Source: Dehalococcoides sp. JdFR-56 (GTDB taxonomy: Bacteria; Chloroflexota; Dehalococcoidia; Dehalococcoidales; RBG-16-60-22). Taken from it: a stretch of 36,951 nucleotides of DNA. The stretch is taken from assembly GCA_002011495.1 (NCBI GenBank), contig MTNR01000006.1, forward strand, positions 1 to 36,951, in the 5' to 3' direction. Below, one piece after another: positions 10,298 to 24,872 of the stretch. The notes below the pieces were generated by a model. That model was not told the DNA's origin and searched no databases. It saw only the letters and a program-made list of their open reading frames with translations. The translations under genes and the position numbers were made by a program. Each line of letters starts with the position of its first letter. The first letter of the stretch is position 1.

Positions 10298-11082
10298 TGG
10301 AAGACAAAGACCTGGAAGCACTTATCAGCAAGGTGGCTGGCTTGGTCTTGAGCGCCAGCAGAACGGTCATCTTCACCGGGGCTGGCGTCAGCACCGAGTC
10401 AGGCATCCCCGATTTCCGCAGCCCGGGAGGGCTCTGGGACCGGTTTGACCCTGATGACTTCACCTATCAGAAGTTCATCAGCGACGTCAGCGCCAGGCGG
10501 AGGCAGTGGCAGCTACTTTGGAGGGAGCGCCTGACCGAGGAAGTAAAACCAAACCCCGCCCACTACGCCATCGCCGAGCTTGATAAGCTGGGCAGGCTGG
10601 ACTGCGTCATCACTCAGAACGTGGACAATCTCCACCAGAAGGCAGGACTTCCCCAGGAAAAGGTGTTTGAACTGCACGGCAATATGCAGTGGGTGGTCTG
10701 CCTTGGCTGTGGGCAGCGTTACCCTATGGAGCAGATCAGAGCTAGGCTAGATAAGGGTGAAGAAATCCCTGACTGCCAGGCCTGCCATGGCATCCTGAAA
10801 CCAGACATCGTGCTCTTTGGCGAGGCGCTGCCCGAGTCAGTGTTTGAGGAGGCAGCTGCCCGTGCCCGTAACTGCGACCTATTTATCGTCATCGGCTCGA
10901 CCTTGGTCGTCTACCCAGCGGCGCTGCTGCCGAGCTACGCCGCCGACGCTGGCGCTAGACTGGTCATCATCAACTTGAGCCCCACCCCGATGGACGAGGT
11001 GGCAACCGTTCTCATCAGGGCGAAAGCCGGAGAGGTGATGCCAAAAGTGGTGCAGAGGGTGGTCGAGAGAGCCGGCGGTTGA
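10297..11082 (+). CDS. Sir2-family NAD-dependent protein deacylase
   Basis: About 261 residues from GTG 10297. Motifs: FTGAGVSTESGIPDFRSPGG (NAD site, about 26-45), TQNVDNLH (106-113), catalytic His127 in FELHGN, and a four-Cys zinc site C135, C138, C160, C163. GGAGGAAG precedes the GTG at ideal spacing and the start overlaps the MFS stop, so the longer open frame back to 10219 is rejected. Bacterial CobB-type enzymes remove acetyl or other acyl groups from acyl-CoA synthetases and related enzymes. Its place among acyl-CoA genes fits control of CoA ligase activity (inference). Confidence 0.93.
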   Translation: MEDKDLEALISKVAGLVLSASRTVIFTGAGVSTESGIPDFRSPGGLWDRFDPDDFTYQKFISDVSARRRQWQLLWRERLTEEVKPNPAHYAIAELDKLGRLDCVITQNVDNLHQKAGLPQEKVFELHGNMQWVVCLGCGQRYPMEQIRARLDKGEEIPDCQACHGILKPDIVLFGEALPESVFEEAAARARNCDLFIVIGSTLVVYPAALLPSYAADAGARLVIINLSPTPMDEVATVLIRAKAGEVMPKVVQRVVERAGG

Positions 11083-11107: not shown

Positions 11108-11151
11108 TTGTTTTGCTTCAAAAAAGGGAAATCGCCGCCACGCAAAGGAGA

Positions 11152-12138
11152 ATGGAGCTAGCCAGCAGAGTACTGCAAGGTGATACCATCGCCGCCGCCA
11201 AGCTCATCAGCGGGATAGAGGATGAGGTGCCCAGCGCGCGGGAAGAGATGAGCTATCTCTACCCCCACACCGGAAAGGCGTATGTCATCGGCATCACCGG
11301 CTCCCCAGGCGCAGGTAAAAGCACCCTGACCAATAATCTGATAGGGTTTTTCCGCGCTCAAGGCATGAGCGTGGGCGTCATTGCCATTGACCCGACCAGC
11401 GCCTTCACCGGCGGGGCAATCTTGGGGGATAGGGTCAGGATGCAGCACCACAGCGCCGATAAGGACGTCTTCATCCGCAGCCTGGCCACCAGGGGATGGG
11501 TCGGCGGCCTGGCCAAGGCCACCACCGGCGCCATCCACGTCATGGACGCCCTGGGCAAGGATGTCATCCTGGTGGAGACGGTAGGCTCTGGGCAGATAGA
11601 GATAGACATCACTAGAGCCGCTGACACCACCCTGCTGGTTCTGACCCCGGCGGCTGGTGACGCCATCCAAATGATGAAGGCCGGCATTTTAGAAGCGGCG
11701 GATATCTTCGTCATCAACAAAGCCGATAAAGGCGGGGCTGACCTTCTCAAAACAGACTTAGAAGCCATGCTGGCGATGAGAGCTCAGCCCGCCAACGGGT
11801 GGCGGCCGGGCATCGTGCTCACCGAGGCCATCTATGACAAGGGCACCGAGGAACTGGGAGAGGAAATCTTGAGGCACCGGGAATTCCTCATCTCCAGTGG
11901 CGAGCTAGGGAGGCGGCAGCGAGAAAGGGTGAAACTGGAGCTCATGGAGACGGTGGAAGGTTTCCTCAAGGATTTCGTCCATGAGGTTGATAAAGGTGAT
12001 TATCTCTCCCGGCTCATTGATGACTTAACCCAGGGCAAGACCAACCCCCACGCCGCCGCCCTGGAGATTATTCGCCGTCTGGCCAAAGAGCTCTCTCGGC
12101 TGGAGGATAGCGGTAAGGCCGGACGGCCCAAGGCATGA
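11152..12138 (+). CDS. meaB: MeaB/ArgK-type GTPase, chaperone of a B12-dependent acyl-CoA mutase
   Basis: About 328 residues of the G3E/MeaB GTPase family, which load and protect adenosylcobalamin in acyl-CoA mutases. Motifs: ITGSPGAGKSTLTNNL (P-loop), VGVIAIDPTS, VETVGSGQIEIDI (the usual form is VETVGVGQSE), and INKADKGGAD (base recognition). The C-terminal helical dimerisation arm is present. ATG 11152 gives a family-typical N-terminus and length; AAAGGAGA lies unusually close to it. TTG 11113 is in frame but sits at the predicted transcript start. Mutase genes follow one gene and one terminator downstream, which supports the MeaB role rather than arginine transport. Confidence 0.9.
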   Translation: MELASRVLQGDTIAAAKLISGIEDEVPSAREEMSYLYPHTGKAYVIGITGSPGAGKSTLTNNLIGFFRAQGMSVGVIAIDPTSAFTGGAILGDRVRMQHHSADKDVFIRSLATRGWVGGLAKATTGAIHVMDALGKDVILVETVGSGQIEIDITRAADTTLLVLTPAAGDAIQMMKAGILEAADIFVINKADKGGADLLKTDLEAMLAMRAQPANGWRPGIVLTEAIYDKGTEELGEEILRHREFLISSGELGRRQRERVKLELMETVEGFLKDFVHEVDKGDYLSRLIDDLTQGKTNPHAAALEIIRRLAKELSRLEDSGKAGRPKA

Positions 12139-12160
12139 AAGGATGCCGCAGGAGGTAGTT

Positions 12161-13306
12161 ATGGACTTTTCCCTGACTGAAGAGCAAAAGATGCTGAAAG
12201 CCATGGTGCAGGACTTTGCCGCCAAGGAGCTGGAGCCGATCGCCGCCCAGATAGATGAGGAGGCCAGATTTCCCGCGGAAAGCGTGAAGAAGATGGCGGA
12301 GCTGGGGCTAACTGGCATTGGCCTCCCGGAAGAATACGGAGGCAGCGGGGGCGGCGCCACCGAATTCTGCATTGTGATTGAGGAGATAAGCCGCGTCTGC
12401 GCCGCCACCGGCACCATTCTGCTAGCCAGTTCTGGCCTAGCTATCGAGCCCGTCTATCTGCACGGCAATGAAGAGCAGCGCAAGCGCTTCGTCACCCCGG
12501 TCGCCAGTGGAGAGAAGCTGGCCGCCTTTGCCCTCACCGAGGCGGGCGCGGGCAGTGACCCGGCTTCCATGGAGACCACCGCCACCCGCCACAATAATGG
12601 CTACCTGCTCAACGGAACCAAGGTCTTCATCACCAACGGGGCTGAAGCCGGCGTCTTCCTGGTCTTCGCCACCATTGATAAATCTCTGCGGCACAATGGT
12701 ATCACCGCCTTCATCGTGGAGAGGGATACCCCCGGCTTTTCCGTGGGCAAGCACGAGCGTAAATTGGGCATACGAGCCTCCTCCACCGTGGAGCTCACCT
12801 TTGAGGACTGCTTTGTCCCCGAGGAAAACCGCCTGGGCGGCGAGGGCGAGGGGTTCAAAATCGCCATCGGCGCCATTGACGCCAGCCGAGTAGTAGTGGC
12901 AGCACAGGCCCTGGGCATCGCCCAGGGTGCCTTTGACAAAGCCCTGGCCTACGCCAAGGAGCGCCAGCAGTTTGGCCAGCCCATCGCCAATTTCCAGGCG
13001 ATTCAGTGGATGCTGGCCGATATGGCCACCCAGATTGATGCCGCTCGGCTATTAACCTACCGCGCCGCCTATCTCCAGGATAAGGGGCTACCCTTCATCA
13101 AAGAGGCATCCATGGCCAAGGTCTTCGCCGCGGAGACATCATCGTTTGTCACCAATAAAGCCATCCAGATATACGGGGGATATGGCTATATCAAGGAACA
13201 CCCCCTGGAACGCTATCTTCGCGATGCCAAGATCACCGAAATCTACGAGGGCACTTCAGAGATGCAACGGATGACCATCGCCCGGCAATTGATTCGGGAA
13301 GGCTAA
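12161..13306 (+). CDS. Acyl-CoA dehydrogenase (short-chain/butyryl-CoA type)
   Basis: About 381 residues, the normal size of the FAD-dependent acyl-CoA dehydrogenase family. The N-terminal helical domain starts MDFSLTEEQKMLKAMV; the FAD-binding signature is FALTEAGAGSDPASMETTA; the second signature IYGGYGYIKEHPLERYLRDA precedes the putative catalytic base Glu363 in EIYEGTSEMQ, the position used by short-chain enzymes. It introduces an alpha-beta double bond and passes electrons to ETF. No etf genes are in this window. ATG 12161 has GGAGG at good spacing and is preferred over ATG 12143. It lies 22 bases after meaB and is followed by a terminator. Confidence 0.93.
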   Translation: MDFSLTEEQKMLKAMVQDFAAKELEPIAAQIDEEARFPAESVKKMAELGLTGIGLPEEYGGSGGGATEFCIVIEEISRVCAATGTILLASSGLAIEPVYLHGNEEQRKRFVTPVASGEKLAAFALTEAGAGSDPASMETTATRHNNGYLLNGTKVFITNGAEAGVFLVFATIDKSLRHNGITAFIVERDTPGFSVGKHERKLGIRASSTVELTFEDCFVPEENRLGGEGEGFKIAIGAIDASRVVVAAQALGIAQGAFDKALAYAKERQQFGQPIANFQAIQWMLADMATQIDAARLLTYRAAYLQDKGLPFIKEASMAKVFAAETSSFVTNKAIQIYGGYGYIKEHPLERYLRDAKITEIYEGTSEMQRMTIARQLIREG

Positions 13307-13313
13307 AACCGAG

Positions 13314-13341
13314 GAGGCTACCAAAACGGTAGCCTCTTTTT
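13314..13341 (+). terminator. Rho-independent terminator after the acyl-CoA dehydrogenase gene
   Basis: A perfect 9-bp stem (GAGGCTACC 13314-13322 with GGTAGCCTC 13328-13336), a 5-base loop and a T-run starting at 13337. It separates the MFS-sir2-meaB-acd unit from the mutase genes. Confidence 0.93.
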
Positions 13342-13368
13342 ATATTCAGGGATAATCTGGGGGCAAAA

Positions 13369-15129
13369 ATGAAGAGCGAAAAAACGACCAAGGAGATTCT
13401 GGAGGAGAGGGCCAAGGCTGAAGGGCGTACTCCGCTCTATAATCCAGAAGCCCTAGAGAAAATCAAAGCCGAGTTTGAGCGCTGGAAGAACACCACGGTT
13501 CCCGAGCGCGACCGAGAGAACTGGGAAATTACCCCGCACACCATCCTGGGTTCGGAGATTCCCCGGGAGCTACTCTATACCCCATTGAATACCGCTGACC
13601 TTGACTATGAAAAAGACCTAGGCTTCTCCGGAGAGGAGCCCTACACTCGGGGCATCCACCCCAACATGTATCGGGGCCGCATCTTCACCAAGCGCCAGCT
13701 CTTCGGCGCTGGCTCGCCGGAGGAGTGCAACCGAAGAATGAAGATGCTCCTGGAGCACGGGGCTACCGGAACCAACTGGGCGTTAGACCTGGCCACGGTG
13801 CAGATGTTTGATTCTGATGAGCCTGAGGCCAAAGGGCAGGTGGCCACCGTGGGCGTCCCCATTGACTGCGTGGAGGATATGGAGGTAATCTGCCGGGATA
13901 TCCCCATTGATAAAATCAGCGCCTCCATCGTTACCCACTACCCCAGAAACACGGCCATTATCTTCCCCATGTATCTGGTGATGGCGGAGCGGAGAGGTAT
14001 CCCCTGGGATAAGCTCCCGGGCAGCGTGCAGAACGACTTCATCATGGAGAGCGTGGTACGCAGCGCCCCGGAATACATCCCACCCCGGGATGACTTCAGA
14101 ATCCAGTGTGACAACATCGAGTTCATCCGCAAGCACGTGCCCCAGTGGAACTATGTTACCCTAAACGGCTACAACTTGAGGGAGTGGGGGACCTCCGGCA
14201 TCACCGAGATGGCGGTGGCCGTGGCCAATGGCATCGAAATCATGAAGGAGATGAGTAGAAGAGGCCACGATATTGACTGGATAGCAGAGAGGCTGGCTTT
14301 CTTCTGGGCGCCAGCCAATGACTTCTTTGAGGAGGTGGCCCGGATACGGGCGGTGAGGCGGCTCTGGTACAAGATAATGAAGCACCGCTTTGAGGCCAAG
14401 CGGCCAAGGTCAATGTGGATGCGCTGTCACGTGCAGACCTCAGGGGTTTCCCTCACCCGGGAAGAGCCGATGAATAACGTGATAAGGGCAGCTTACCACG
14501 CTCTGGCGGCGGTGCTGGGTGGGGCGCAATCGTTGCACGTTGATTCCTATGACGAGGCCTATTCCGTCCCCTCCGAGGAAGCTTCCCTTTTATCCCTACG
14601 CACCCAGCAGATTATCGAGGCGGAGACGCAGATAACTCAGGTGGTTGACCCGCTGGGCGGCTCCTTCTACGTGGAGGCGCTGACCAACGAGATAGAAAAA
14701 AGGATCCTGGATGAGGTGGATGAGATCGAGCGGATGGGCGGCATCATTGAGGCTGTGGCCAGTGGCTGGCTGCACCACAAGGTAGCCCGGCACATTGAGC
14801 GGGAGCAGAGGATGATTGACAGCGGTGAAATCAAAGTGGTGGGCCGCAACTACTACCCCGACCCCAACCTCAAGCTGCCCGATATCTGGGTGCACGAATA
14901 CGATGAAACCATCGCCCGCCAGATGCGGGATAAGCTCGCTAGACTGCGCCAACGCCGAGACAACGAGAAGGTAACCAGCGCTCTTCAAGCCTTAAAGGAG
15001 GCCTGCAAGCGGGGGGACAACGTCATGGAGTATACTCTCGAGTGCGCTCGCGCCGATGCCACCGTGGGGGAGATGCGCCGCGTCTTCACCGAAGCCTTCG
15101 GCTCCTGGAAGCCTCCCATCTTCACCTAA
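13369..15129 (+). CDS. B12-dependent acyl-CoA mutase, large (TIM-barrel) subunit; substrate uncertain
   Basis: A 586-residue methylmalonyl-CoA mutase family barrel without a fused B12 domain, so it pairs with the separate subunit at 15150. Ungapped comparison around the active site with Propionibacterium MCM gives: Arg207 is Arg231 (QNDFIMESVVR), Gln197 is Gln221, Tyr243 is Tyr268, but His244 is Asn269 (LNGYNLREWG) and Tyr89 is Leu111 (FTKRQLFGAG). The Arg suggests a substrate with a free carboxylate. Isobutyryl- and 2-hydroxyisobutyryl-CoA mutases carry Gln at this site, so they are poor matches. A possible GATAAT -10 box lies at 13351-13356 and GGGGG precedes the ATG. Methylmalonyl-CoA is possible but the two pocket changes argue for another substrate. 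Confidence 0.9.
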   Translation: MKSEKTTKEILEERAKAEGRTPLYNPEALEKIKAEFERWKNTTVPERDRENWEITPHTILGSEIPRELLYTPLNTADLDYEKDLGFSGEEPYTRGIHPNMYRGRIFTKRQLFGAGSPEECNRRMKMLLEHGATGTNWALDLATVQMFDSDEPEAKGQVATVGVPIDCVEDMEVICRDIPIDKISASIVTHYPRNTAIIFPMYLVMAERRGIPWDKLPGSVQNDFIMESVVRSAPEYIPPRDDFRIQCDNIEFIRKHVPQWNYVTLNGYNLREWGTSGITEMAVAVANGIEIMKEMSRRGHDIDWIAERLAFFWAPANDFFEEVARIRAVRRLWYKIMKHRFEAKRPRSMWMRCHVQTSGVSLTREEPMNNVIRAAYHALAAVLGGAQSLHVDSYDEAYSVPSEEASLLSLRTQQIIEAETQITQVVDPLGGSFYVEALTNEIEKRILDEVDEIERMGGIIEAVASGWLHHKVARHIEREQRMIDSGEIKVVGRNYYPDPNLKLPDIWVHEYDETIARQMRDKLARLRQRRDNEKVTSALQALKEACKRGDNVMEYTLECARADATVGEMRRVFTEAFGSWKPPIFT

Positions 15130-15149
15130 AACGGAGGTTAGAAGATACT

Positions 15150-15563
15150 ATGGCACAGCCAAGAAATAAAATTAAGGTACTGCTAGCCCAGTTCCCTCTG
15201 GAGACCCACAGCCGGGGCATCATCACCGTGGCCGGCATGCTCAAAGACGCCGGCATGGAGGTGGTTTTAATCGGTAATGAGCTGCCGGAACGAATCATTG
15301 ACGCCGCCATCCAGGAGGATGTTGACGTGGTGGGCATCAGTACCTACTGCGGCGGTGAACTGGCGCTAGCCGATGACCTGATGAAGGCCGCTGAGGAAAA
15401 GGGGATAAAGGAGAGTACCGTATTCCTGCTGGGAGGGATATTCCCGCCCAAAAACATACCCAAGCTAAAGGAGATGGGCTTTGATGGCACCTTCCTCTCC
15501 ACGACCAAGGAAGAGATCGTTAGCTGCATTGAAAAGGCCATCGCCAGCAAAAGAAGGAGGTAG
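15150..15563 (+). CDS. B12-binding small subunit of the acyl-CoA mutase
   Basis: A 137-residue cobalamin-binding Rossmann domain, about the size of IcmB/HcmB-type small subunits. The histidine that replaces the lower axial ligand is His20, in L-E-T-H-S-R-G; the family motif is DxHxxG, so the Asp that hydrogen-bonds the His is Glu18 here, and the upstream Lys of MCM (Lys604) is Gln14. Later B12-contact segments are present as GISTYCGGEL and LLGGIFPPKN. GGAGGTT precedes ATG 15150; the longer open frame from 15042 overlaps the large subunit and is rejected. It lies 20 bases after the large subunit and two bases before the SDR gene. Confidence 0.92.
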   Translation: MAQPRNKIKVLLAQFPLETHSRGIITVAGMLKDAGMEVVLIGNELPERIIDAAIQEDVDVVGISTYCGGELALADDLMKAAEEKGIKESTVFLLGGIFPPKNIPKLKEMGFDGTFLSTTKEEIVSCIEKAIASKRRR

Positions 15564-15565
15564 CC

Positions 15566-16348
15566 ATGGGGAGACTGGATGGTAAAGTCGCCGTGATTAC
15601 CGGTGCCGCCAGAGGCATCGGCAAGGCGGATGCCTTACTTTTTGCCCAAGAAGGGGCGGCCGTGGTCATCAGCGATATTGACCCAGAGCCGCTTGAGGAG
15701 ACCGCCAGGGAGATAGCGGCCGCCGGAGGTAAAGTGGCCTGGTGTGTGGCTGATGTCACCAAGCCAGAGGATACTGATAAGCTGATGGACACCGCCGTGG
15801 AGAAATTCGGCGATTTGAATATCCTGGTGAACAATGCCGGGATAACCCGGGATGCGCTCATCCACCGCATGACCGATGCCCAGTGGGATATCTGCATAGA
15901 TACCATCTTAAAGGGAACCTTTAACTGCATCCGCTCCGCAGCCAAGTATTTCCGCAAGGAAGGTCACGGGGGCAAGATCATCAACGTCGCCTCGGTGGTG
16001 GGGCTGATGGGGAATATCGGCCAGATAAACTATTCAGCGGCCAAGGCAGGCATCATTGGGCTGACCAAAACCGTGGCCAAGGAGTGGGCTAGCTTCGGCG
16101 TCACTTGCAACGCCATCGCCTATGGCTTCGTCCACACCAGGCTCACCGGCGAGAAGGAAAGCGGGGAGATAGTGGCCGGAGAGAAAGTGGGCATACCCAA
16201 GAAGGTGAGAGAAAGCATGCTCGAGATGGTCGGTGGCAAAGCCATGACCCCGGAAGAGGCAGCTAGACCAGTTCTGTTCCTGGCCTCATCCGATGCCGAC
16301 TACATCACCGGTCACGTTCTCAATGTAAGCGCCGGGATGTATATGTAG
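15566..16348 (+). CDS. Short-chain dehydrogenase/reductase (3-hydroxyacyl-CoA dehydrogenase or FabG-like)
   Basis: A 260-residue classical SDR. The nucleotide motif is TGAARGIG (residues 12-19), with acidic SDIDP after beta-2, which favours NAD(H) over NADP(H). NNAG lies near residue 90, the catalytic Ser in INVASVVG and the YSAAK Tyr/Lys near 155-159. A small insert with EKESGEIVAGEKVG occurs in the substrate lid. Oxidation of a 3-hydroxyacyl-CoA or a cyclic hydroxyacyl-CoA is inferred from its position directly after the mutase. GGAGG precedes the ATG. The gene converges on the BcrD-like gene with nine bases between stops and no visible terminator. Confidence 0.9.
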   Translation: MGRLDGKVAVITGAARGIGKADALLFAQEGAAVVISDIDPEPLEETAREIAAAGGKVAWCVADVTKPEDTDKLMDTAVEKFGDLNILVNNAGITRDALIHRMTDAQWDICIDTILKGTFNCIRSAAKYFRKEGHGGKIINVASVVGLMGNIGQINYSAAKAGIIGLTKTVAKEWASFGVTCNAIAYGFVHTRLTGEKESGEIVAGEKVGIPKKVRESMLEMVGGKAMTPEEAARPVLFLASSDADYITGHVLNVSAGMYM

Positions 16349-16357
16349 CTTTTGACC

Positions 16358-17134
16358 CTAGGCAGCCATCTCCTCAGCCATGATGGCGGCACCCAAAGCG
16401 GTCACCAGCTGGGGCTGTGGAGGCACCAACAGCTTGAGGCTCAGCTTCTCTTCTATGCTTCTTACCAGCCCGATATCAAGAGCGCCGCCGCCGCTGATGG
16501 TGCAGTCCTTCTCCAGACCAACCCTCTCAACAAGGGTGGATATTTTGTCGGCCAGTGCCTGGTGCACCCCGGCCAGGATATCCTCCTTGGCATTGCCCTC
16601 AGCCACCCTGGAGATGGCCTCTGATTCCCCGAAGACGGCACAGCCGGTGGTGAAGGCAACCGGCCTTTTTGATTTCAGGGAAAGCGGCCCGATATCCTCA
16701 AGCTCTACTTGGAGCACATTGGCGATGACTTCCAGAAAGCGCCCGCTGCCGGCGGCACACTTCTCACTGACCACGAAGTTAACCACCTGCCCGCGCTCAC
16801 CCAGCCTGATTACCTGGCTGGACTGCGCCTGCACGTCGATCACCGTTCTCGCCGAGGGAAAAATTTTACTTATGCCCCGGGCGCAGCAGCGGATATCGGT
16901 AACTTGCCCATCCGAGTAGGGCACACTGGCCGAGCCCTGGCCGGTGGCCACGGTATAGGCGATGTCTTGGGAAGATAGTTTGGCTTTGGCCAGAAGCTCA
17001 GCGCGCAATTTTTCTGCGGCCGCCCGGTAATTCGCCCCGGAGGGGAGCAGGTGGTAAGCCAGCACCTCTCCATCCCTAGTGACAACTCCCTTGCTCGTTC
17101 CCGAGCCAATATCAATGCCCATAAAATAAGCCAT
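16358..17134 (-). CDS. BcrD/BzdP-type ATPase subunit with altered DIGGQD motif
   Basis: A 258-residue member of the BadF/BcrA/HgdC ATPase family with an ASKHA fold. The N-terminal phosphate loop is MGIDIGSGTSKGVV; the [4Fe-4S]-bridging cysteines are C126 in SEKCAAGSGRFLEV and C165 in TTGCAVFGESE. The usual DIGGQD(S/A)K motif is replaced by DVQAQSSQ (100-107). In class I benzoyl-CoA reductases two non-identical ATPases form a heterodimer, and as I recall the BcrD-type partner also deviates at this motif; 2-hydroxyacyl-CoA dehydratase activators are homodimers. This subunit therefore looks like the second half of a BCR-type electron activator. It is the last gene of the unit. Confidence 0.85.
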   Translation of the reverse strand: MAYFMGIDIGSGTSKGVVTRDGEVLAYHLLPSGANYRAAAEKLRAELLAKAKLSSQDIAYTVATGQGSASVPYSDGQVTDIRCCARGISKIFPSARTVIDVQAQSSQVIRLGERGQVVNFVVSEKCAAGSGRFLEVIANVLQVELEDIGPLSLKSKRPVAFTTGCAVFGESEAISRVAEGNAKEDILAGVHQALADKISTLVERVGLEKDCTISGGGALDIGLVRSIEEKLSLKLLVPPQPQLVTALGAAIMAEEMAA

Positions 17135-17142
17135 AACACGCC

Positions 17143-18003
17143 CTACTTATAGAAGGTGGCCTCCGCCAGACGGCGCTCCTTCTTGGGGAGGGGCTCACCC
17201 TTCTCCAGAGATTTAAAGGCGATTTCCTTACCTAAAAGAGCCGCCCCCAGCGCCCCGCTGATGAGCGGGTCATCGGGAACAAGCACCTGATGTCCCAAAT
17301 TTTCCTGCACCGCCCTGACCACTCCTTTATTTTTAGCCACACCCCCGGTAAAGACGACATCGCCCTCAATCCCCAGCCGCCGCAGCATGCCCACGGCCCG
17401 GCTGGCGATGGCCTCATGGAGCCCAGCCACGATATCCTCTACGGGAACCCCCTCGGAAAGGCGGGAGATAACCTCCTGCTGGGCAAAAATGGTGCAGGTG
17501 TTGCTGATATTGACCCGATTTTGCGATTTCAAGGAGATATCGCCCAGCTCTTCTAGCTTGAGGCCAAGCGTTTTGGCGATGACTTCCAAAAACCTCCCCG
17601 TCCCGGCGGCACACTTGTCATTCATGACGAAGTTGGTGAGCTTGCCATCTTTTATCTTGAGCCCCTTGGCATCCTGTCCCCCGATATCAAGGGCAGTTCT
17701 GGCGGAGGGAAAGAGGCTGGTCACCCCCCGGGCATGGCAAGTTAGCTCGGTTATCTGCCTATCGGCAAAAGGAACATTGATGCGCCCGTAGCCAGTGGCG
17801 ATGACGTAGGTTATCTCCTCAAAGGGTAGTTCTGCCTGCTTCAGCGCCTGCTCCATCACCCTGTTGGCCAGGCGGCGGTGCTCGGCGCCGGTGTGAGTCT
17901 CCACCCGAGCCCGAATCACCCCATCCCCGTCAATAATCACCACCTTGGTCATGGTGGAGCCAAGGTCAACGCCGGCAAAATAGAGTGAGCCTGCTGATTT
18001 CAA
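17143..18003 (-). CDS. BcrA/BzdQ-type ATPase subunit (HgdC-like electron activator)
   Basis: A 286-residue ASKHA ATPase with canonical motifs: GVDLGSTMTKVVIID (phosphate 1), ALDIGGQDAKGLKI (D106 to D111, connect/phosphate 2), cluster ligands C131 in NDKCAAGTGRFLEV and C170 in SNTCTIFAQQE, and FTGGVAKNKGVV (adenosine motif). Such proteins couple ATP hydrolysis to raise one electron to very low potential and pass it to the partner reductase or dehydratase. The start is TTG 18003 with a G-rich ribosome site; no better start gives the full first motif. Eight bases separate it from the second ATPase, and together they should form the heterodimer. Confidence 0.9.
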   Translation of the reverse strand: MKSAGSLYFAGVDLGSTMTKVVIIDGDGVIRARVETHTGAEHRRLANRVMEQALKQAELPFEEITYVIATGYGRINVPFADRQITELTCHARGVTSLFPSARTALDIGGQDAKGLKIKDGKLTNFVMNDKCAAGTGRFLEVIAKTLGLKLEELGDISLKSQNRVNISNTCTIFAQQEVISRLSEGVPVEDIVAGLHEAIASRAVGMLRRLGIEGDVVFTGGVAKNKGVVRAVQENLGHQVLVPDDPLISGALGAALLGKEIAFKSLEKGEPLPKKERRLAEATFYK

Positions 18004-18035
18004 ATTAGAATACCCCCTTTACCCCCGCAGCGAGC

Positions 18036-19214
18036 CTAACCTATCACCTCAAGGAAGGCCTGGACCCTCGTCCTTAGCTGGGCCAGAGCTGCCTGGCTGT
18101 AGTCATGCTCAAGATAAATGCTGGGTAAATCAATGTGGTCAAGGTAGTCTTTGAGGCCGGGCACCTCATAACCGTGAATATCGCAGTACCGCAGCACCTC
18201 AAGGATAACCCCGTTAACCTTCCATTCTTGAGCGTAATCTTTGAGGTAACTGAACCTGTTTTCCAGGTCAGCTAGATAATCCTTGCGCTTGGTCTTGGTG
18301 AGAACCGTCTCCCGGAAAGTGCGGGGGCTTTTAAGCGCCACCAGATAGCGGTTGGCTAGCCCGTCCAGCGGGTCGCCGGTTTGCTCCACCAGTGGGAAAT
18401 AGGCCCGGCTGCCCAGTGAGGTATCATCCATGACCACGTTGGCCCCGAGGCTCTCAATCAGGTCAATAATCGCGGTGTTATCAATGATGCTGCCCCAGAG
18501 AAGAAGCCTGGCCGGCTGTATTCTCGGGCCGTCCCGGCGCTCATGCGCCTGGCGGATAACCTGCCTGAGGAGCTCGTTTCCTTCTGTTACCGGCAGGCTG
18601 GCCAGCGCCACCAGCACCTGAAGCGTCTCCGTTCCAGAGATAAGGGGAGGGTCAGGCTTCCTCAAATCATACAGTTCCCGCACTAGAAGGCGCTGCTCAT
18701 TGTGGACCTCGATAGCCTGGCGCAGTTTCTCCAGGGTAAGTTCTTTCCCGGCGAACGCTTCCAGGGTTTTCTTAAAATCTTTCAGCAATTCTTTATGCTG
18801 CTCAAGGGCGGCGGTATGGGTGGTGTGGGGGGTATCAATGAAGTGGGCATAAGCAGGGTTAAGGTAAGTTCGCCAGATGTGGGCAGTTTTCTCGGCCACT
18901 TCACAGCCATGGGCCATGACCACCCCGTCCAGGAAATCGTACCTGCCCTTCAAACCCAGGTCCATCACGCTGCGGATAAAGGGGCAGACCACGGTGGGTA
19001 GGCAAGCATCCGCCTTGGTTATCGGCTCATTCATATCGCCCAAGATCCGGTAAGGAACTAAATCAAGCGCGGTGAGCATCTCCAGAACGGGGTAGATATC
19101 AAAGTAGCCGATGACCTGCTTCCCCTCAGCTTTGAGCTCTCTAGCTCGGCGGGTCCGGTCCTGATAAATGGCCCTAGCTCTATCCAGCCCAGTTTCCATC
19201 TCGCTCATCACCAT
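18036..19214 (-). CDS. BcrC/BzdN-like subunit (2-hydroxyacyl-CoA dehydratase/benzoyl-CoA reductase family)
   Basis: A 392-residue HgdB-superfamily protein, close to the length of benzoyl-CoA reductase subunit C (about 380-390). Candidate cluster cysteines lie at the family positions: C77 in VVCPFIRSVMD (with C71 nearby), C104 in MAHGCEVAEK and C344 in LRYCDIHGYEV. These would bind a [4Fe-4S] cluster that receives electrons from the ATPase pair. The ATG at 19214 overlaps the upstream stop (7 bases); a second in-frame ATG at 19208 shares a TGATG with that stop. Whether it reduces an aromatic ring or removes a 2-hydroxy group cannot be decided from sequence; context favours the BCR form. Confidence 0.86.
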   Translation of the reverse strand: MVMSEMETGLDRARAIYQDRTRRARELKAEGKQVIGYFDIYPVLEMLTALDLVPYRILGDMNEPITKADACLPTVVCPFIRSVMDLGLKGRYDFLDGVVMAHGCEVAEKTAHIWRTYLNPAYAHFIDTPHTTHTAALEQHKELLKDFKKTLEAFAGKELTLEKLRQAIEVHNEQRLLVRELYDLRKPDPPLISGTETLQVLVALASLPVTEGNELLRQVIRQAHERRDGPRIQPARLLLWGSIIDNTAIIDLIESLGANVVMDDTSLGSRAYFPLVEQTGDPLDGLANRYLVALKSPRTFRETVLTKTKRKDYLADLENRFSYLKDYAQEWKVNGVILEVLRYCDIHGYEVPGLKDYLDHIDLPSIYLEHDYSQAALAQLRTRVQAFLEVIG

Positions 19215-20545
19215 GCCATCCCCGCCTCTTTTCTCACCTGGCGGTAGTGGCTCATCGTCTCCTCAAAGGTCTCCGCCTTCCTCAAGGCCTCGGCGGGGTC
19301 AAAGAGGTTGAGGTCAACGATGTCCCCCTCAATGACCAAGGAGGGCACCTTCAACTTGGACATGAGCTGGTCCTGAACCACCATCAGGTGGTTCGTCGCC
19401 GTGCGACAGGTAAGCAAGGGATGCAGCACTATGCCATCACACTGATATTCCTGGACCAGTTCCAGGTAAGGATGGGCGAAATATCCCCACCAGTCTCCGG
19501 TATTGTAGGCATCCTCAAAGTAGCCGGAGAAATACTGGTAGGTCAAATTGGCCACGCGCTCCAGGGGGTCACTCACCTGACTTAAGTCTATCGGCTTGGG
19601 CGGGTGATACGCCCAGCTCTCAATGACAAAGTTCCAGCCCCGCTCCGCCAGCTGGTCAAAGAATTTCAGGCTGTGCCACGGGGGGAGCTCAGCAAAGGCG
19701 AGCCTATATTTCTCCTCCCCAATGGCGCCACGGTGGTTTGCCACCATGGACTTTACTTCCTCATACATCTGGCGGTAGAGGCCAGTGGTAACTTTGGGGT
19801 CAGCCGCCATATAGAGCGAGGCGGGCATGCTGCTCCAGAAGTCCCGGGAGTGCATCGGGCAGGGGCGGGCTTTGCGTAGCTCGTTTACCTCATACCACAC
19901 CCGGTTCATCTCAATGGTATCATCAATTATCTCGGCGAGTTTGTCCCAGTCCATCTTCCTATCCAGCAGCCACTCCAGAAAGGCGATAAACTCCCTAAGC
20001 TCAGCCACCAGAAATTTGATGTTATGCTCCCTCACCCCCTCCAGCCGGCTCTCCTTCACCCCGGGGTGGGGCATCTCCAGCACCCACACCGGAGCGTCCA
20101 GGTAGCGCCCGAGCGCCTGAAACCATTTATAGCGGGTATCGCAAAAGTAGCCGGAGCTGAGCAGCAAAGTGGGCTTGGGCATCCCACCCATGGGGGCTTC
20201 GGGCGGTATCGCGCCCAGTTCCTTCATCCGAGCGGCGTAGCCGAGGCAGTTGCGGGCATAGCCACACATATGGCTGGGGAAACCATCGCTGTCAGCTTGC
20301 GCCAGATACGCCGGGGCAGCGCCGAAAGCGGCGCAGACGGCACCATAGTCCTCCGGGTAGACCGCCGCCACCTCCATCGCCCTGAGGATGGCATCCCCTC
20401 CCCACCAGTTGACCATGCACCAGGCCACCGGCTTCCCCTCCTGGCCTGCCTCCACCGCCCGCTCATACATCCCGTCAACCAGGGCCCGGAGGGGATACAT
20501 GGTCTTCAGCCGGTTGATGGGCCTTTTCTTTTCCCCTTCAGCCAT
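19208..20545 (-). CDS. BcrB/BzdO-like subunit (benzoyl-CoA reductase family)
   Basis: A 445-residue HgdB-superfamily protein; BzdO/BcrB proteins are about 430-450 residues. Cysteines suitable for cluster binding are C94 and C100 in HMCGYARNCLGY, C135 in GYFCDTRYKW and C380 in HPLLTCRTATNH. The last motif and the N-terminal GKPVAWCMVNWWGGD resemble BCR subunit B more than the dehydratase subunits (judged from memory of the families). It should pair with the 392-residue subunit to form the substrate-reducing module. AAGGAG precedes the ATG. The 30-base gap to the DUF35 gene and the overlap with the next subunit indicate one transcript. Confidence 0.87.
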   Translation of the reverse strand: MAEGEKKRPINRLKTMYPLRALVDGMYERAVEAGQEGKPVAWCMVNWWGGDAILRAMEVAAVYPEDYGAVCAAFGAAPAYLAQADSDGFPSHMCGYARNCLGYAARMKELGAIPPEAPMGGMPKPTLLLSSGYFCDTRYKWFQALGRYLDAPVWVLEMPHPGVKESRLEGVREHNIKFLVAELREFIAFLEWLLDRKMDWDKLAEIIDDTIEMNRVWYEVNELRKARPCPMHSRDFWSSMPASLYMAADPKVTTGLYRQMYEEVKSMVANHRGAIGEEKYRLAFAELPPWHSLKFFDQLAERGWNFVIESWAYHPPKPIDLSQVSDPLERVANLTYQYFSGYFEDAYNTGDWWGYFAHPYLELVQEYQCDGIVLHPLLTCRTATNHLMVVQDQLMSKLKVPSLVIEGDIVDLNLFDPAEALRKAETFEETMSHYRQVRKEAGMAW

Positions 20546-20575
20546 AAATGATGGCTCCTTAAGCGCTAACCTGCC

Positions 20576-20989
20576 CTAGGCTACCAGGCTGAAGAGAGGT
20601 CTGGCGCCATCGCCCGCGGAATACTTATCGCCAGGGAAGACCGCGTTTCCCGTCATCTTCACCTTTTTGCCAATCAGCTCCATGCTGGCCGCAGCCGGGT
20701 CAATGCCGGTTAAATTGCCCATCACCCAGGGACCTTCATCAAGCTCCACCAGCAGGATAACATAGGGGACTTCGCTCTCCCTCCCCTCCGGGGCAACATT
20801 GCAGGTGGTGAAAGTCTGAATCTTGCCCGTGCCTTTGAGCTCAATGACCTCCATATTGGGGCTAGAGCACTTCCGGCAGACCATCTTGGGCGGCACGGTA
20901 ACCGTGCCACAGTCATTACATTTCAGGCCCAATAGTTTATTCTGCTTGAGCGCCTCATTATAATCCTTGAAAGTCAGCTTATACTCCAT
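20576..20989 (-). CDS. DUF35 zinc-ribbon/OB-fold acyl-CoA-associated protein
   Basis: A 137-residue protein. The N-terminal rubredoxin-like zinc ribbon has C24, C27, C38 and C41 (KCNDCG, then CRKC), followed by an OB-fold (GKIQTFTTCNVAPEGRE, then VPYVILLVELDEGPWVMGNL). Members accompany thiolases, for example in archaeal thiolase/HMG-CoA synthase complexes and steroid side-chain enzymes, and help hold acyl-CoA intermediates. It lies 35 bases after the thiolase gene and should form a complex with it. GGAGG lies before the ATG. Confidence 0.9.
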   Translation of the reverse strand: MEYKLTFKDYNEALKQNKLLGLKCNDCGTVTVPPKMVCRKCSSPNMEVIELKGTGKIQTFTTCNVAPEGRESEVPYVILLVELDEGPWVMGNLTGIDPAAASMELIGKKVKMTGNAVFPGDKYSAGDGARPLFSLVA

Positions 20990-21024
20990 TTTCAGCCTCC
21001 GCAGAAACTAAATCAGCCCTCTAC

Positions 21025-22203
21025 TTACCAGCCCCGCTCTAGGATCATGTTAACCAGGGTGCTGCCATCTCCGCCCAGGGTGTCCGTCATCCCGATTTTG
21101 GCCCCCTCCACCTGCCGCTCCGGCTCCACCTCGCCTCTTAACTGTTTGGTGATCTCATAGACCTGACCGGCACCAGTGGCCCCGATAGGATGGCCTTTGG
21201 ACTTCAGCCCGCCCGAGGGATTTATGGCCACCTTACCGCCAATATCCGCCTCGCCCTTCATCCAGGCCTCGCCCGCCTTGCCAAACTCAAAGAAGCCCAG
21301 GCTCTCCGCCGCGATGAGGCTGGCGATGCTGAAGCAATCATGCAGCTCACAGACATCAATATCCTGGGGCGTCACCCCAGCCATATCATAGGCCTGCTTG
21401 GAGGATATCTCTCTGGCCCTGAGCCGGGGCAGATATTCCTGCTGGCTGACCAAAGGGCCACCGGAAGCTTGCCCCACGCCGATGATATAGACCGGCTTAC
21501 TAGTCAATTTCTTGGCCACCTCCTCCGAGGCCAGAACCAGGGCCGCCGCCCCATCAGAGAACGGGCAGCAATCATGCAGCTGCAGCGGCGTGCTCACCAT
21601 GAACGAATTCAGCACCGCCTCAACGGTTACCTCCTTGCGCAGGTGCGCCTTGGGGTTGAACATGCCGTACTTGTAAGACTGCACTGATACCACCGCCATC
21701 TGCTCTTTGAGCTTCTCCAAGGGGATGCCATACTTGGCCGAGTAAAGATGAGCCAGCATGGCAAAGACCGCGGGGAAGGTGATACCAGAGGGGAATTCAT
21801 ACCGGCTATCACTGAACATGGAAAAGGTGCGCGTGGCCAGCGCCGTGCCCATGGTGGCCGCCCTCTCCACACCCCCAGCCAGCACGATGTCATAAAAGCC
21901 GGAGGCCACCCACATGAAGGCATCCCTTACCGCCATGCTGGCGGAGGCACAGGCTCCCTCGTATCTGTTGGCTGGGATACCAGCGCAGCCGATGCTCTCC
22001 GCAGCAAACGCCTGCACCGAACCCTGCCCCTCTGAGAAATCCCCCAGCACGTTGCCTAAGAACAAAGCCTGAATGTCCTTTGGTTTCAGGTTTGATTCGG
22101 CGATAGCCTCCGCAGCCGCCTCGCCAAAAAGTTCAACGCTCGTCTTCTCCTGGGCCCCGCTGAACTTGGTCTCCCCCACGCCAACAACAGCTACTTTTCT
22201 CAT
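21025..22203 (-). CDS. Thiolase-family acyltransferase (SCP-x/archaeal acetyl-CoA acetyltransferase type)
   Basis: A 392-residue thiolase. The acyl-accepting Cys is C85 in YEGACASASM, with H288 in CELHDCFS and H338 in NPSGGLKSKGHPIGATG. The second cysteine of classical thiolases (in a CGGG context near the C-terminus) is absent; the segment reads MTDTLGGDGST, as in the SCP-x/archaeal branch that works with DUF35 partners. It probably cleaves a 3-ketoacyl-CoA, or catalyses a related C-C bond step in the DUF35 complex. AGGAGG precedes the ATG and a promoter lies at 22241-22269. It is the first gene of the six-gene unit ending at 16358. Confidence 0.92.
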   Translation of the reverse strand: MRKVAVVGVGETKFSGAQEKTSVELFGEAAAEAIAESNLKPKDIQALFLGNVLGDFSEGQGSVQAFAAESIGCAGIPANRYEGACASASMAVRDAFMWVASGFYDIVLAGGVERAATMGTALATRTFSMFSDSRYEFPSGITFPAVFAMLAHLYSAKYGIPLEKLKEQMAVVSVQSYKYGMFNPKAHLRKEVTVEAVLNSFMVSTPLQLHDCCPFSDGAAALVLASEEVAKKLTSKPVYIIGVGQASGGPLVSQQEYLPRLRAREISSKQAYDMAGVTPQDIDVCELHDCFSIASLIAAESLGFFEFGKAGEAWMKGEADIGGKVAINPSGGLKSKGHPIGATGAGQVYEITKQLRGEVEPERQVEGAKIGMTDTLGGDGSTLVNMILERGW

Positions 22204-22297: not shown

Positions 22298-24349
22298 TCA
22301 AGATACCGCTTGGATAACCAGCTCGGCGATGTCCATAACTTTGAGCCTTTCTTCCGCCTCCTTTGATTTTATCCCATCCTCAAACATCTGGAGACAATAA
22401 GGACAGGCGGTGGCGATCACCTCAGCGCGGGTTGCCAGCGCCTGCTCGGTTCGCATTTCATTGATGCGCTGGCCCACCTTCTGCTCCTCCAGCCAGAGGT
22501 GCCCACCACCAGCCCCACAGCAAAAGCCCCGCTCCCGGTTCTGCGCCATCTCCACTAGCCTAATCCCAGGGATATGGTTTAGAATCTGCCGTGGGAGCTC
22601 ATAGATATCATTGTACCTCCCCAGATAGCAGGAGTCATGGTAGGTTATCACCCCGCCACTCCCTTTGAGAATCCCTAGCCTCCCTTCCTTGAGCAAGCTA
22701 GCGATAAATTCGGTGTGATGGATAACCTGAAAACCGGCGCCGAACTGGGGGTATTCGTGCTTCAGGGTGTTATAGCAGTGAGGGCATCCGGTGACTATCT
22801 TTCTTATGCCATAGTTCTTTAGTAGCTCAATATTGCCCTGCACCTGAAGCTGAAAGAGGTACTCATTGCCCAGACGGCGGGCTGGGTCGCCACAGCAGAC
22901 CTCCTCAACCCCCAGAATGCCAAAGTTAACGCCAGCCAGTTTCAGTATTCGGGCAATCGCCTGGGCCACCCTGGTGCTTCTCTCCTCCAAAGCCTGAGTG
23001 CAGCCGACCCAGAACAAAATATCTATATCGCTGTCATCAGCCAAGGTTTTGATATCAAGCCCCTGCGCCCAGTCAGTGCGGCTGAGGGTGGTTCCCCGCC
23101 AGGGGTGGCCTCTTGCCTCAAGGCTCTTTAAGGCCCCTTCCCCCGTCTCCGGAATGGACGCCCGCTCCAGCACCAGATTTCGTCTCATCTCCAAGAGCTT
23201 GACCATCGGCTCAATATACACCGGGCAGACCTCCTGGCAGGCGTAACAGGTGGTGCAGTTCCAAATCTCATCCTCCTGGACCACCTCACCGATGAGCTCC
23301 CGGCCACCATCTCCAGAATCGGCCGTCCGCGCAAGTAGGCTTGCTTTTAAGTCCTGCACCGTCTTCTTGGGGCTTAAAGGTTTCCCGCTGAGATAGGCCG
23401 GACAGCTATCCTGGCACCGCCCGCACCGGGTGCAGGCGTCCAGGTCCAATAGGTGCTTCCAGCTGAAATCCTCAATTTTGGCGGCACCAAAGGTCTCGGT
23501 TTGCTCCAAGTCAATCGGCCTAAGAGCCCCCCTTGACTCCAGATTGCGGAAGAAGATATTGAGCGTGGCCACCACGATATGCCAGAGCCGGTTCCAGTAC
23601 AAGGCCACATAAACCAGGGCACCCATAGACAGAAGCATATGCAGCCACCAGGTAACCCGGTGCCAGATAAGCAGACCAGCTTGGCTCAAGCCGCTGAAGC
23701 CGAGCGCCAAAAGATAGCCCACCGGTGACCAGAGCGCCCAGCCCGGGTTGGTCTTGAGCTCCGTGGCAGCGATACGCAGCCCCTCAACCAGAAAGCCACT
23801 CACCACCAGGGCGAGGAGAAGGAGCAGGGTGATTAGGTCATCGCCCTTATTATCCAGTCTGGCCGGTCTCTGTATATAGCGCCGGTGCACGGCCAGCACC
23901 ACCCCGACGATAACCACTAGCCCTGCGATATCAAGCGCCAGCGAAAAACCCAGGTAGAAGCTGCCCTCAAGGAAGTGAAAGAAGTAGTGGCTGGCCGAAA
24001 CCAGAACCGTGCCGAGAAACAATACCAGTACACCAGAAAAGATGAGAAAATGGATTAGCCCGGGATAAAACTCTCTGGGCCTGAGGTCTTTTATTGCTAA
24101 GCGCCGATGCCCCAGCCCCTCGGCCACACCCAAGAACTTGCGGTGCAGCAGAATATCAACCACGAGGCTACCGAGAAACGCCCGCAATCTTCTCCCCAGA
24201 TAGCTCAAGCGGTTCTCCGGCCCACCCAGCCGCCACAATCTAGCCCGGCGCCAGAGCGCCCAAACAAGAATGCTGGCAACGATGATTGCCAGCACGTCAA
24301 CGATGACCCCAAGCGGTATATTCCAGAATACTTCCCGACTGGGTTCCAT
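22298..24349 (-). CDS. Membrane-bound Fe-S oxidoreductase, EMO (ETF:menaquinone oxidoreductase)-like
   Basis: About 683 residues. Residues 1-265 hold about six membrane helices with His residues suited to haem b (LIHFLIFSG, WHRVTWWLHMLLSMG), like NarI. Two [4Fe-4S] motifs follow: ACTRCGRCQDSCP (C306, C309, C312, C316) and NCTTCYACQEVCP (C365, C368, C371, C375). The C-terminus has two CCG domains (EVCCGDPARRLG, GFCCGAGGGHLW) as in HdrD and GlpC. This order matches the FAD-independent ETF:menaquinone oxidoreductase first described in Geobacter; other HdrD-like quinone oxidoreductases are alternatives. It could oxidise ETF reduced by acyl-CoA dehydrogenases. ATG 24349 has AAAGGAG and is preferred over the open frame to 24394. 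Confidence 0.85.
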   Translation of the reverse strand: MEPSREVFWNIPLGVIVDVLAIIVASILVWALWRRARLWRLGGPENRLSYLGRRLRAFLGSLVVDILLHRKFLGVAEGLGHRRLAIKDLRPREFYPGLIHFLIFSGVLVLFLGTVLVSASHYFFHFLEGSFYLGFSLALDIAGLVVIVGVVLAVHRRYIQRPARLDNKGDDLITLLLLLALVVSGFLVEGLRIAATELKTNPGWALWSPVGYLLALGFSGLSQAGLLIWHRVTWWLHMLLSMGALVYVALYWNRLWHIVVATLNIFFRNLESRGALRPIDLEQTETFGAAKIEDFSWKHLLDLDACTRCGRCQDSCPAYLSGKPLSPKKTVQDLKASLLARTADSGDGGRELIGEVVQEDEIWNCTTCYACQEVCPVYIEPMVKLLEMRRNLVLERASIPETGEGALKSLEARGHPWRGTTLSRTDWAQGLDIKTLADDSDIDILFWVGCTQALEERSTRVAQAIARILKLAGVNFGILGVEEVCCGDPARRLGNEYLFQLQVQGNIELLKNYGIRKIVTGCPHCYNTLKHEYPQFGAGFQVIHHTEFIASLLKEGRLGILKGSGGVITYHDSCYLGRYNDIYELPRQILNHIPGIRLVEMAQNRERGFCCGAGGGHLWLEEQKVGQRINEMRTEQALATRAEVIATACPYCLQMFEDGIKSKEAEERLKVMDIAELVIQAVS

Positions 24350-24371
24350 ATATAGCTCCTTTAGCTTTGCT

Positions 24372-24872
24372 TTAGCGCAAACGGCTGATGGCAAGGAAAA
24401 CGCCCAAGGCCAAGGCCACTAGGTCAAAGATGATGCCGAACAGGCTGAAGTGAAGCCCGCCCAAAAGCAGCCCCCAGGGAAAGAAAATGCTCACCAGATA
24501 GCTTAAAATCACGGCGATGCCGGCGGTCAGGGCCAGCCCTATGCCACGCTTGCGGTTGACGGAGAGACTCACCACCTCGCCGATGGCGTAACCAACGCCA
24601 GGGCCAAGCAGCAGATTGAGGTAGAAGAAGGGCAGAAAATTGCCTATCACCCCCCAGATGAGGCCGGAGACGATGGCCATACCCAGCGCCGCCAGGGACG
24701 CCCTCAGGTAATGCTTGGAGGAAACGCGATAGGTGGGCAGTTTATACATTCGAGCGCAGTCCGGGCACCTGGCGCCCACTGGGGTCTGCACCATGCACTT
24801 GGGGCAGATGGGCTTACCACACTTCCCGCACCTGAGGCTGGTTTCCACCTCAGGATGAGCGGCACACTTCAT
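24372..24872 (-). CDS. B-box-type zinc-finger membrane protein
   Basis: A 166-residue protein of unknown function. Residues 1-40 hold two small zinc-binding knuckles (MKCAAHPEVETSLRCGKCGK and CPKCMVQTPVGARCPDCARM), a B-box-like arrangement. About four hydrophobic segments follow from residue 58 on. Similar N-termini occur on bacterial rhomboid-related and YIP1-like membrane proteins. Its ATG overlaps the plsY stop by four bases (ATGA at 24872-24869), so it is translationally coupled to phospholipid synthesis. No function is claimed. Confidence 0.8.
   Translation of the reverse strand: MKCAAHPEVETSLRCGKCGKPICPKCMVQTPVGARCPDCARMYKLPTYRVSSKHYLRASLAALGMAIVSGLIWGVIGNFLPFFYLNLLLGPGVGYAIGEVVSLSVNRKRGIGLALTAGIAVILSYLVSIFFPWGLLLGGLHFSLFGIIFDLVALALGVFLAISRLR

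Follow-up and report, generated by a model that had tools for sequence, protein, structure and literature searches.

Benzoyl-CoA reductases (BCRs) and (R)-2-hydroxyacyl-CoA dehydratases (HADs) belong to one superfamily of ATP-dependent radical acyl-CoA enzymes. Class I BCRs (BzdNOPQ, MbdONQP, BcrCBAD) pair two HGD-D subunits with two unlike BcrA/D ATPases and have ferredoxin and ring-hydrolysis genes as neighbours, whereas known dehydratases (HadBC, HgdAB, LcdAB) use one homodimeric activator, and the double-cubane protein DCCP is a homodimer with one ATPase. In the acrylate pathway, lactyl-CoA dehydratase is followed by acryloyl-CoA reductase (AcrC). The locus described here lies on the minus strand at 16358-22203 of a 36,951-nucleotide stretch of DNA (the window) from Dehalococcoides sp. 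JdFR-56 (contig MTNR01000006.1), and comprises genes for a thiolase, a DUF35 protein, two HGD-D subunits and two BcrA/D-type ATPases; a sequence-only reading had taken it for a class I BCR-like cluster fused to a thiolase-DUF35 unit. The window corresponds to contig C11 of genome G000 (1.80 Mb, 92.75% complete), and its nearest named relatives are metagenome-assembled genomes (MAGs) of Dehalococcoidia (Chloroflexota); loci are given L numbers below. We find that the locus very probably represents a separate, non-BCR family of the radical superfamily that is linked to a B12-dependent acyl-CoA mutase.

The substrate subunit BzdO holds its cluster through Cys95, Cys128 and Cys380 and uses Glu65 and His131 as an acid/base pair, and loss of a sub-cluster has been proposed to reshape the BCR and dehydratase family (PMC11971306). 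Members of this superfamily also appear in acetone metabolism: HgdBC-like "benzoyl-CoA reductase" subunits are strongly induced by acetone in Desulfotomaculum species, also occur in D. biacutus and D. cetonica, and were singled out as of special interest with no reaction assigned (PMC8084838). We found no structure paper on methylbenzoyl-CoA reductase in the literature.

The six-gene cluster and its relation to benzoyl-CoA reductases

All six open reading frames (ORFs) are intact, encode 392, 137, 445, 392, 286 and 258 residues, and follow each other at 35 and 30 bases, a 7-base overlap, and 32 and 8 bases, as the sequence-only reading had described, though the thiolase and DUF35 genes are adjacent rather than fused to the others. 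The thiolase (21025..22203; Pfam Thiolase_N, Thiolase_C_1) is of the acetoacetyl-CoA/SCP2 type that partners a DUF35 protein, has acetoacetyl-CoA thiolase 6esq as its top PDB match (E 1e-73), and occupies the same place in relatives. Its DUF35 partner (20576..20989; zf-ChsH2 zinc ribbon and OB_ChsH2_C OB fold) shows weak similarity to BbsA (34/250 bits). The two HGD-D proteins are the predicted substrate-side subunit of the radical enzyme, HgdB445 (19208..20545; 176 bits), and the predicted electron-relay subunit, HgdC392 (18036..19214; 253 bits). ATP286 (17143..18003; BcrAD_BadFG 223 bits) is a canonical BcrA/D-type electron-activating ATPase with the motif DIGGQDAK and both cluster Cys. The second such subunit, ATP258 (16358..17134; BcrAD_BadFG 175 bits), has retained the two cluster Cys, but its nucleotide motif is degenerate and reads DVQAQSSQ in place of DIGGQDAK in an alignment with MbdP and MbdQ; MbdP of methylbenzoyl-CoA reductase likewise deviates there. 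Gene order and identity are kept across independent MAGs (60-91% identity), so the arrangement is far beyond chance. The six genes are a real conserved cluster, not a demonstrated BCR, and both Pfam domains and motifs support the view that they include a four-subunit, ATP-dependent member of the BCR/HAD superfamily with two unlike ATPases.

None of the BCR equivalog cut-offs was reached (score/cut-off in bits: BzdN 170/454, BcrC 138/421, BzdO 76/449, BcrB 58/487, BzdQ 185/380 and 161/380), and the large subunits also stayed under the cut-offs of the dehydratase models (HadB 110/750, HadC 141/700) and of the double-cubane protein model NF040772 (186/350). The top PDB match of HgdC392 was BzdN (8s02; E 1e-47; 30% identical), while that of HgdB445 was HadB. 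In IQ-TREE phylogenies whose references were BZD, MbdN/MbdO, HadBC-type HAD and DCCP sequences, HgdC392 fell in its own 23-row clade and HgdB445 in its own 27-row clade (support 100/100 each), both outside the BZD sequences (including Dehalococcoidia BzdN/BzdO), the HADs and DCCP. MbdN and MbdO, both on long branches, fell in other parts of the trees and did not group with the window subunits. The placement of both large subunits firmly inside the dehydratases or double-cubane proteins, which the sequence-only reading had named as fatal to its proposal, was therefore not seen in these trees. AlphaFold models, which that reading had recommended alongside trees, did not separate the HAD from the BCR alternative. 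The HgdB445 model matched HadB, MbdO and BzdO with Z of 34.7, 33.0 and 32.6 (HAD and BCR tied within noise), and the HgdC392 model, which is weak (pLDDT 70), matched HadC, BzdN and MbdN about equally well (31.5, 31.1 and 30.6).

Residues of the substrate subunit are partly those of a BCR. HgdB445 keeps three cluster Cys (C94, C135, C380), the predicted ligands of an aqua-[4Fe-4S] cluster, together with the equivalent of Glu65 and a Trp near the BzdO Trp46 position. The BzdO His131, by contrast, is replaced by Arg138, and Arg is found across the whole clade; since MbdO is also without this His, its loss argues against the BZD type only. Genes for ring hydrolysis were absent at the locus, as had been noted from the sequence, and a wider search did not supply them: 6-oxocyclohexenecarbonyl-CoA hydrolase (Oah) had no match over the cut-off of 464 in G000 (best 65 bits; genome 92.75% complete) or across 31 genomes of the family (best 97 bits). 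Of six further cluster-bearing genomes, one, the Desulfotomaculum genome with L012, encodes such a hydrolase, and the other five had none over cut-off. With the cut-offs missed, the clades separate, His131 lost and no Oah over cut-off in the 31 family genomes, we reject benzoyl-CoA reduction as the function of this enzyme, and the proposed class I identity is not supported. The suggestion that the enzyme occurs here in a bacterial group not known for it also fails at the class level, as class I bzdNOPQ genes have already been published for Dehalococcoidia (PMC5736913) and BzdN exceeded its cut-off in 5 of 216 Dehalococcoidia genomes.

Several other sets of such genes were detected. In four Dehalococcoidia genomes (G1166, G1186, G1198 and G1176), class I BCR-like enzymes are unusually expanded, with a minimum of eight BzdN-like genes per genome. 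G000 itself has a second four-gene set of a different lineage (contig C18, L044:6815-11161) with two HGD-D genes and two BcrA/D ATPases, one degenerate; its HgdC has all six double-cubane Cys, and the set adjoins cobalamin biosynthesis genes. At L017:1240-3926, tandem HgdB445-type genes, 69% and 61% identical to that of the window, stand ahead of a single HgdC gene.

In the relay subunit, the six Cys of BzdN, DCCP and YjiM align with HgdC392 positions 39, 77, 104, 266, 296 and 344; they are taken as ligands on the strength of this alignment and of the [8Fe-9S] cluster that BzdN is described to hold. HgdC392 keeps the proximal C77, C104 and C344, and the distal three are replaced by D39, S266 and S296, whereas all six are present in most of its orthologues. 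The window protein and those of L005, L006, L008 and L009 share the pattern D, C, C, S/V/T/F, S/N, C, so that exactly the three presumed distal ligands are gone; the five group together with 99/96 support. The same triple loss arose separately in another lineage (L080, L082, L101, L104; 100/100), and L010, L011, L013 and L014 retain six Cys within the same operon type. That the operon occurs with and without the distal cubane is suggestive of two-electron storage being non-essential for the pathway, an argument from ligand residues that is weakened by methylbenzoyl-CoA reductase, which, as seen in part, is also without the distal ligands. In Desulfobacterota, we also detected a thiamine diphosphate (TDP)-dependent acetolactate-synthase-like enzyme (L104:7127-9088, and in L101) beside a close HgdB445 relative whose HgdC belongs to this second lineage without distal ligands.

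Compared with class I BCRs, the window enzyme thus has the same subunit plan and fold, a substrate subunit with the same three Cys and Glu and, in most HgdC392 orthologues, the six Cys of BzdN; it differs in its separate clade, in Arg for the BzdO His, in the missing distal ligands of HgdC392, and in its linkage to a B12 mutase and a thiolase-DUF35 pair instead of ferredoxin and ring-hydrolysis genes. It shares with the dehydratases the fold, the cluster Cys, the Glu and a relay without distal ligands, and with lactyl-CoA dehydratase in particular a nearby AcrC-like dehydrogenase, but has two unlike ATPases in place of one homodimeric activator, a separate clade, and relatives that keep the double cubane. 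DCCP and YjiM, of the same superfamily and with the same six Cys as most HgdC392 orthologues, likewise fall in a separate clade, and the DCCP homodimer with one ATPase contrasts with the heterodimer and two ATPases of the window.

Recurrent linkage to a B12-dependent acyl-CoA mutase

The conserved unit extends past position 16358, where an opposite-strand unit (11113-16348) converges on the last ATPase gene, that of ATP258; this unit and an upstream membrane protein gene (22298-24394) recur with the six-gene set in relatives. Its B12 mutase is the conserved partner that the sequence-only reading had overlooked. On the plus strand, the unit encodes MeaB, the GTPase chaperone of B12 acyl-CoA mutases (11113..12138; Pfam MeaB 282 bits), and an acyl-CoA dehydrogenase closest to AcrC (12143..13306; NCBIfam AcrC 522 bits, cut-off 640; next model 360 bits) with the catalytic motif YEG. 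These are followed by the catalytic subunit of a B12-dependent acyl-CoA mutase (13369..15129; Pfam MM_CoA_mutase 545 bits), whose nearest PDB entry is 2-hydroxyisobutyryl-CoA mutase (HCM) 4r3u, and by the B12-binding subunit (15147..15563; Pfam B12-binding 66 bits; TIGR00640 78.9 bits, cut-off 57.5), whose start was picked from orthologue lengths, the listed ORF beginning upstream at 15042. The last gene encodes a short-chain dehydrogenase/reductase (SDR) of the 3-hydroxyacyl-CoA type (15566..16348; Pfam adh_short), in whose stead relatives carry a MaoC hydratase beside the last ATPase gene (L006, equivalent place). The membrane iron–sulfur protein on the minus strand (22298..24394; Pfam Fer4_8 and two CCG domains) has NarI-like helices with a NarI/QmoC-type N-terminus, is likewise adjacent in L006 and L018, and is a probable electron carrier from Etf to quinone.

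Adjacency of the mutase and HgdBC was found in the Dehalococcoidia loci of the window, L006, L047, L010, L011, L013 and L059. In Syntrophaceae, L014 carries SDR, enoyl-CoA hydratase, thiolase, DUF35, HgdB, HgdC, both ATPases, MeaB, mutase and B12 subunit genes, all on one strand. The same mutase lineage also adjoins a second, related HgdBC subclade (L109, L137, L138) and two quite different HgdBC lineages (L134, L144), and its sister lineage adjoins a fourth (L148, L163), so that, over three phyla, mutases with an odd active-site signature stand next to no fewer than four distinct HgdB/C lineages. Across 395 Desulfobacterota genomes, the two co-occurred in 8 of 13 against 1.4 expected (P 1e-5, a statistic that ignores kinship). 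HgdBC clusters with no mutase on the contig piece covered were seen at L015, L017 and L060-L062. Outside acetone clusters, we found no description of an HgdBC-mutase module in the literature.

The mutase itself has an unusual active site, L89/R207/N244 in 1REQ numbering, and differs at 89 and 244 from methylmalonyl-CoA mutase, which has Tyr89, Arg207 and His244. The signature is near-invariant over its 20-row clade (100/100), which is sister (96/93) to a Gly207/Asn244 clade that holds the mutases of acetone-type clusters. HCM, the nearest solved structure, resembles the window mutase in its separate large and small subunits, its MeaB and its hydrophobic residue 89; the two are 39% identical, and Ile90, Asp117, Gln208 and His of HCM correspond to Leu, Ala/Leu, Arg and Asn in the window clade. 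In the Gly207 subclade, L147:2806-4284 and L149:5571-7025 carry a gene of the HpaB/4-hydroxybutyryl-CoA-dehydratase type after mutase, B12 subunit and ligase; this is another radical dehydratase type paired with a mutase, recognized in L149 by likeness of sequence only.

The mutase neighbourhoods contain several pointers to 2-hydroxyacyl-CoA chemistry. Ligases beside these mutases share 48-55% identity with one from the Methylibium 2-hydroxyisobutyrate cluster, and a 2-hydroxyacyl-CoA lyase is encoded at L144 (803 bits, cut-off 600). L163, with a TDP enzyme, an HMG-CoA-lyase-like protein, mutase, MaoC, ligase, 2-oxoacid oxidoreductase and HgdBC, matches the published acetone-inducible Desulfotomaculum clusters (PMC8084838). 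Such clusters in Desulfotomaculum arcticum/geothermicum, Desulfococcus biacutus and Desulfosarcina cetonica resemble the window in uniting a B12 mutase, "benzoyl-CoA reductase" subunits, thiolase, DUF35, hydratase and dehydrogenase, and their mutases, of the sister clade, have the same Tyr-Asn signature. They differ in having another HgdBC lineage, Gly in place of Arg at 207, and a TDP enzyme, of which G000 has no match at E 1e-50 or better. The acetone pathway as such was rejected for G000 on this last point.

Other genes that handle acyl groups were detected near the mutase unit and elsewhere in G000. A histone-deacetylase-like gene (3114-4148) and a Sir2-type deacylase (10219-11082) lie near the unit, Sir2 being kept beside MeaB in several relatives, and are perhaps linked to acyl-CoA stress. 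On contig C9 of G000 (L168:6512-11057), genes for an isobutyryl-CoA-mutase-like enzyme (Phe89, Gln207, His244) and its B12 subunit directly follow a 2-oxoacid:ferredoxin oxidoreductase, which suggests an anaerobic valine route.

A possible 2-hydroxyacyl-CoA pathway and its alternatives

The gene content, the separate family, the kept and lost residues and the repeated mutase linkage are read directly from the sequences, and from them we infer the order and direction of steps, the dehydratase chemistry, the substrate class and the electron donor of a pathway. The six genes and the mutase unit would form one CoA-thioester pathway module, in which ATP286 and ATP258 would hydrolyse ATP to drive a low-potential electron into HgdC392 and then into the [4Fe-4S] cluster of HgdB445. 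There, one-electron reduction of a 2-hydroxyacyl-CoA would form a thioester ketyl radical, which would lose hydroxide, be deprotonated and return the electron to yield a 2-enoyl-CoA in a reversible reaction. The likely substrate pair would be a 2-hydroxy-2-methyl (or similar) acyl-CoA and the 2-enoyl-CoA, as in 2-hydroxyacyl-CoA dehydratases. The B12 mutase may interconvert branched 2-hydroxyacyl-CoA and straight 3-hydroxyacyl-CoA, the SDR may oxidize the latter to 3-oxoacyl-CoA for cleavage by thiolase-DUF35, and the AcrC-like dehydrogenase and membrane iron–sulfur protein may handle acyl-CoA/enoyl-CoA electrons. We hold a module with dehydratase chemistry on 2-hydroxyacyl-CoA to be plausible, though slightly short of an even call, and any exact substrate to be an unlikely guess.

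Besides the separate clades, the recurrent mutase linkage and the 2-hydroxyacyl-CoA genes described above, two features count for the module with a dehydratase: the window HgdC is without the distal cubane, like HadC, and the dehydrogenase is closest to AcrC, the partner of a dehydratase. Other observations weigh against it. The mutase is without Asp117, the residue that binds the 2-hydroxy group in HCM, and keeps Arg207, the carboxylate binder of methylmalonyl-CoA mutase, which leaves room for a dicarboxylic substrate. Most orthologues of the same operon keep six double-cubane Cys like BzdN, which fits a two-electron reductase equally, and the pair of unlike ATPases recalls BCRs. The second, isobutyryl-CoA-mutase-like enzyme of G000 means that isobutyryl-CoA may be handled there and is not a safe substrate guess; moreover, the window dehydrogenase has YEG, not the LEG motif reported for isobutyryl-CoA dehydrogenase (PMC8360864). 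Finally, the TDP ketone-activating enzyme had no match at E 1e-50 or better in G000 and close relatives, and no 2-hydroxyacyl-CoA lyase exceeded its cut-off in G000.

Among the alternatives, the enzyme could be a Birch-type, two-electron reductase of some aroyl-CoA, though not of benzoyl-CoA, and complete an arylsuccinyl-CoA route of mutase (as IaaGH), dehydrogenase, hydratase, SDR, thiolase-DUF35 and ring reduction. The gene content fits the logic of indoleacetate/phenylsuccinate degradation (PMC8360864), the mutase retains Arg207, and the Trp near BzdO Trp46, the six Cys of most orthologues and the BzdN match of HgdC392 suit an aroyl-CoA reductase; we nevertheless consider this role unlikely, as the dehydrogenase has YEG and not the GGG of decarboxylating benzylmalonyl-CoA dehydrogenases (PMC8360864), no ring hydrolase exceeded its cut-off, the BCR His131 is Arg, and the mutase neighbours are 2-hydroxyacid rather than arylsuccinate genes. 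An indoleacetate-type benzylmalonyl-CoA route, considered for the mutase and dehydrogenase, was weakened by the same motif and neighbours. Least credible is a class I BCR acting on benzoyl-CoA or methylbenzoyl-CoA, for which we see very little room: its four subunits, their sizes, the two unlike ATPases, the fold, the 30% identity to BzdN and the class I BCRs of some Dehalococcoidia (PMC5736913) are outweighed by the missed cut-offs, the position outside the BZD clade and apart from MbdN/MbdO, the lost His131 and the lack of Oah over cut-off in 31 genomes.

Two further alternatives are both quite improbable. The enzyme could act off the main carbon chain and supply a strongly reduced C1/formyl group, with the mutase downstream, as loosely suggested for acetone-degrading sulfate reducers; acetone induction of HgdBC-like subunits in Desulfotomaculum species (PMC8084838) and the joint presence of TDP enzyme, mutase and HgdBC in the acetone-type loci L148 and L163 agree with this, yet G000 and close relatives keep HgdBC and mutase without a TDP enzyme (E 1e-50) or a lyase over cut-off, and the acetone-type HgdBC are a separate clade. 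A stand-alone 2-hydroxyacyl-CoA dehydratase that serves to ferment amino acids and has the mutase unit beside it by chance would suit the HadB matches of HgdB445 in sequence and model (Z 34.7, a tie with BCRs within noise), but the mutase linkage recurs in three phyla in rearranged order, and the window enzyme has two unlike ATPases and lies outside the HAD clade.

The preferred reading of a mutase-linked 2-hydroxyacyl-CoA module points to the breakdown of branched or hydroxylated organic acids, not aromatic rings. We tentatively suggest, with rather more doubt than confidence, that the locus represents a third functional family within the ATP-dependent radical acyl-CoA enzymes and a new class of B12 mutase (L89/R207/N244), together forming an undescribed anaerobic route between branched and straight acyl-CoA in Chloroflexota, Desulfobacterota and Bacillota, with a natural in-operon change from an [8Fe-9S] double-cubane relay to a single-cluster relay. 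Loss of the distal ligands within one orthologous operon provides natural enzyme pairs with which to test the sub-cluster-loss proposal (PMC11971306). For metagenomics, such clusters carry a warning, as they are easily annotated as aromatic-ring degradation though the evidence points elsewhere. The locus also shows a tie between the superfamily and B12 acyl-CoA mutases that reaches far outside the acetone-degrading bacteria, and thus gives a concrete reaction to test for the unexplained acetone-induced proteins (PMC8084838).

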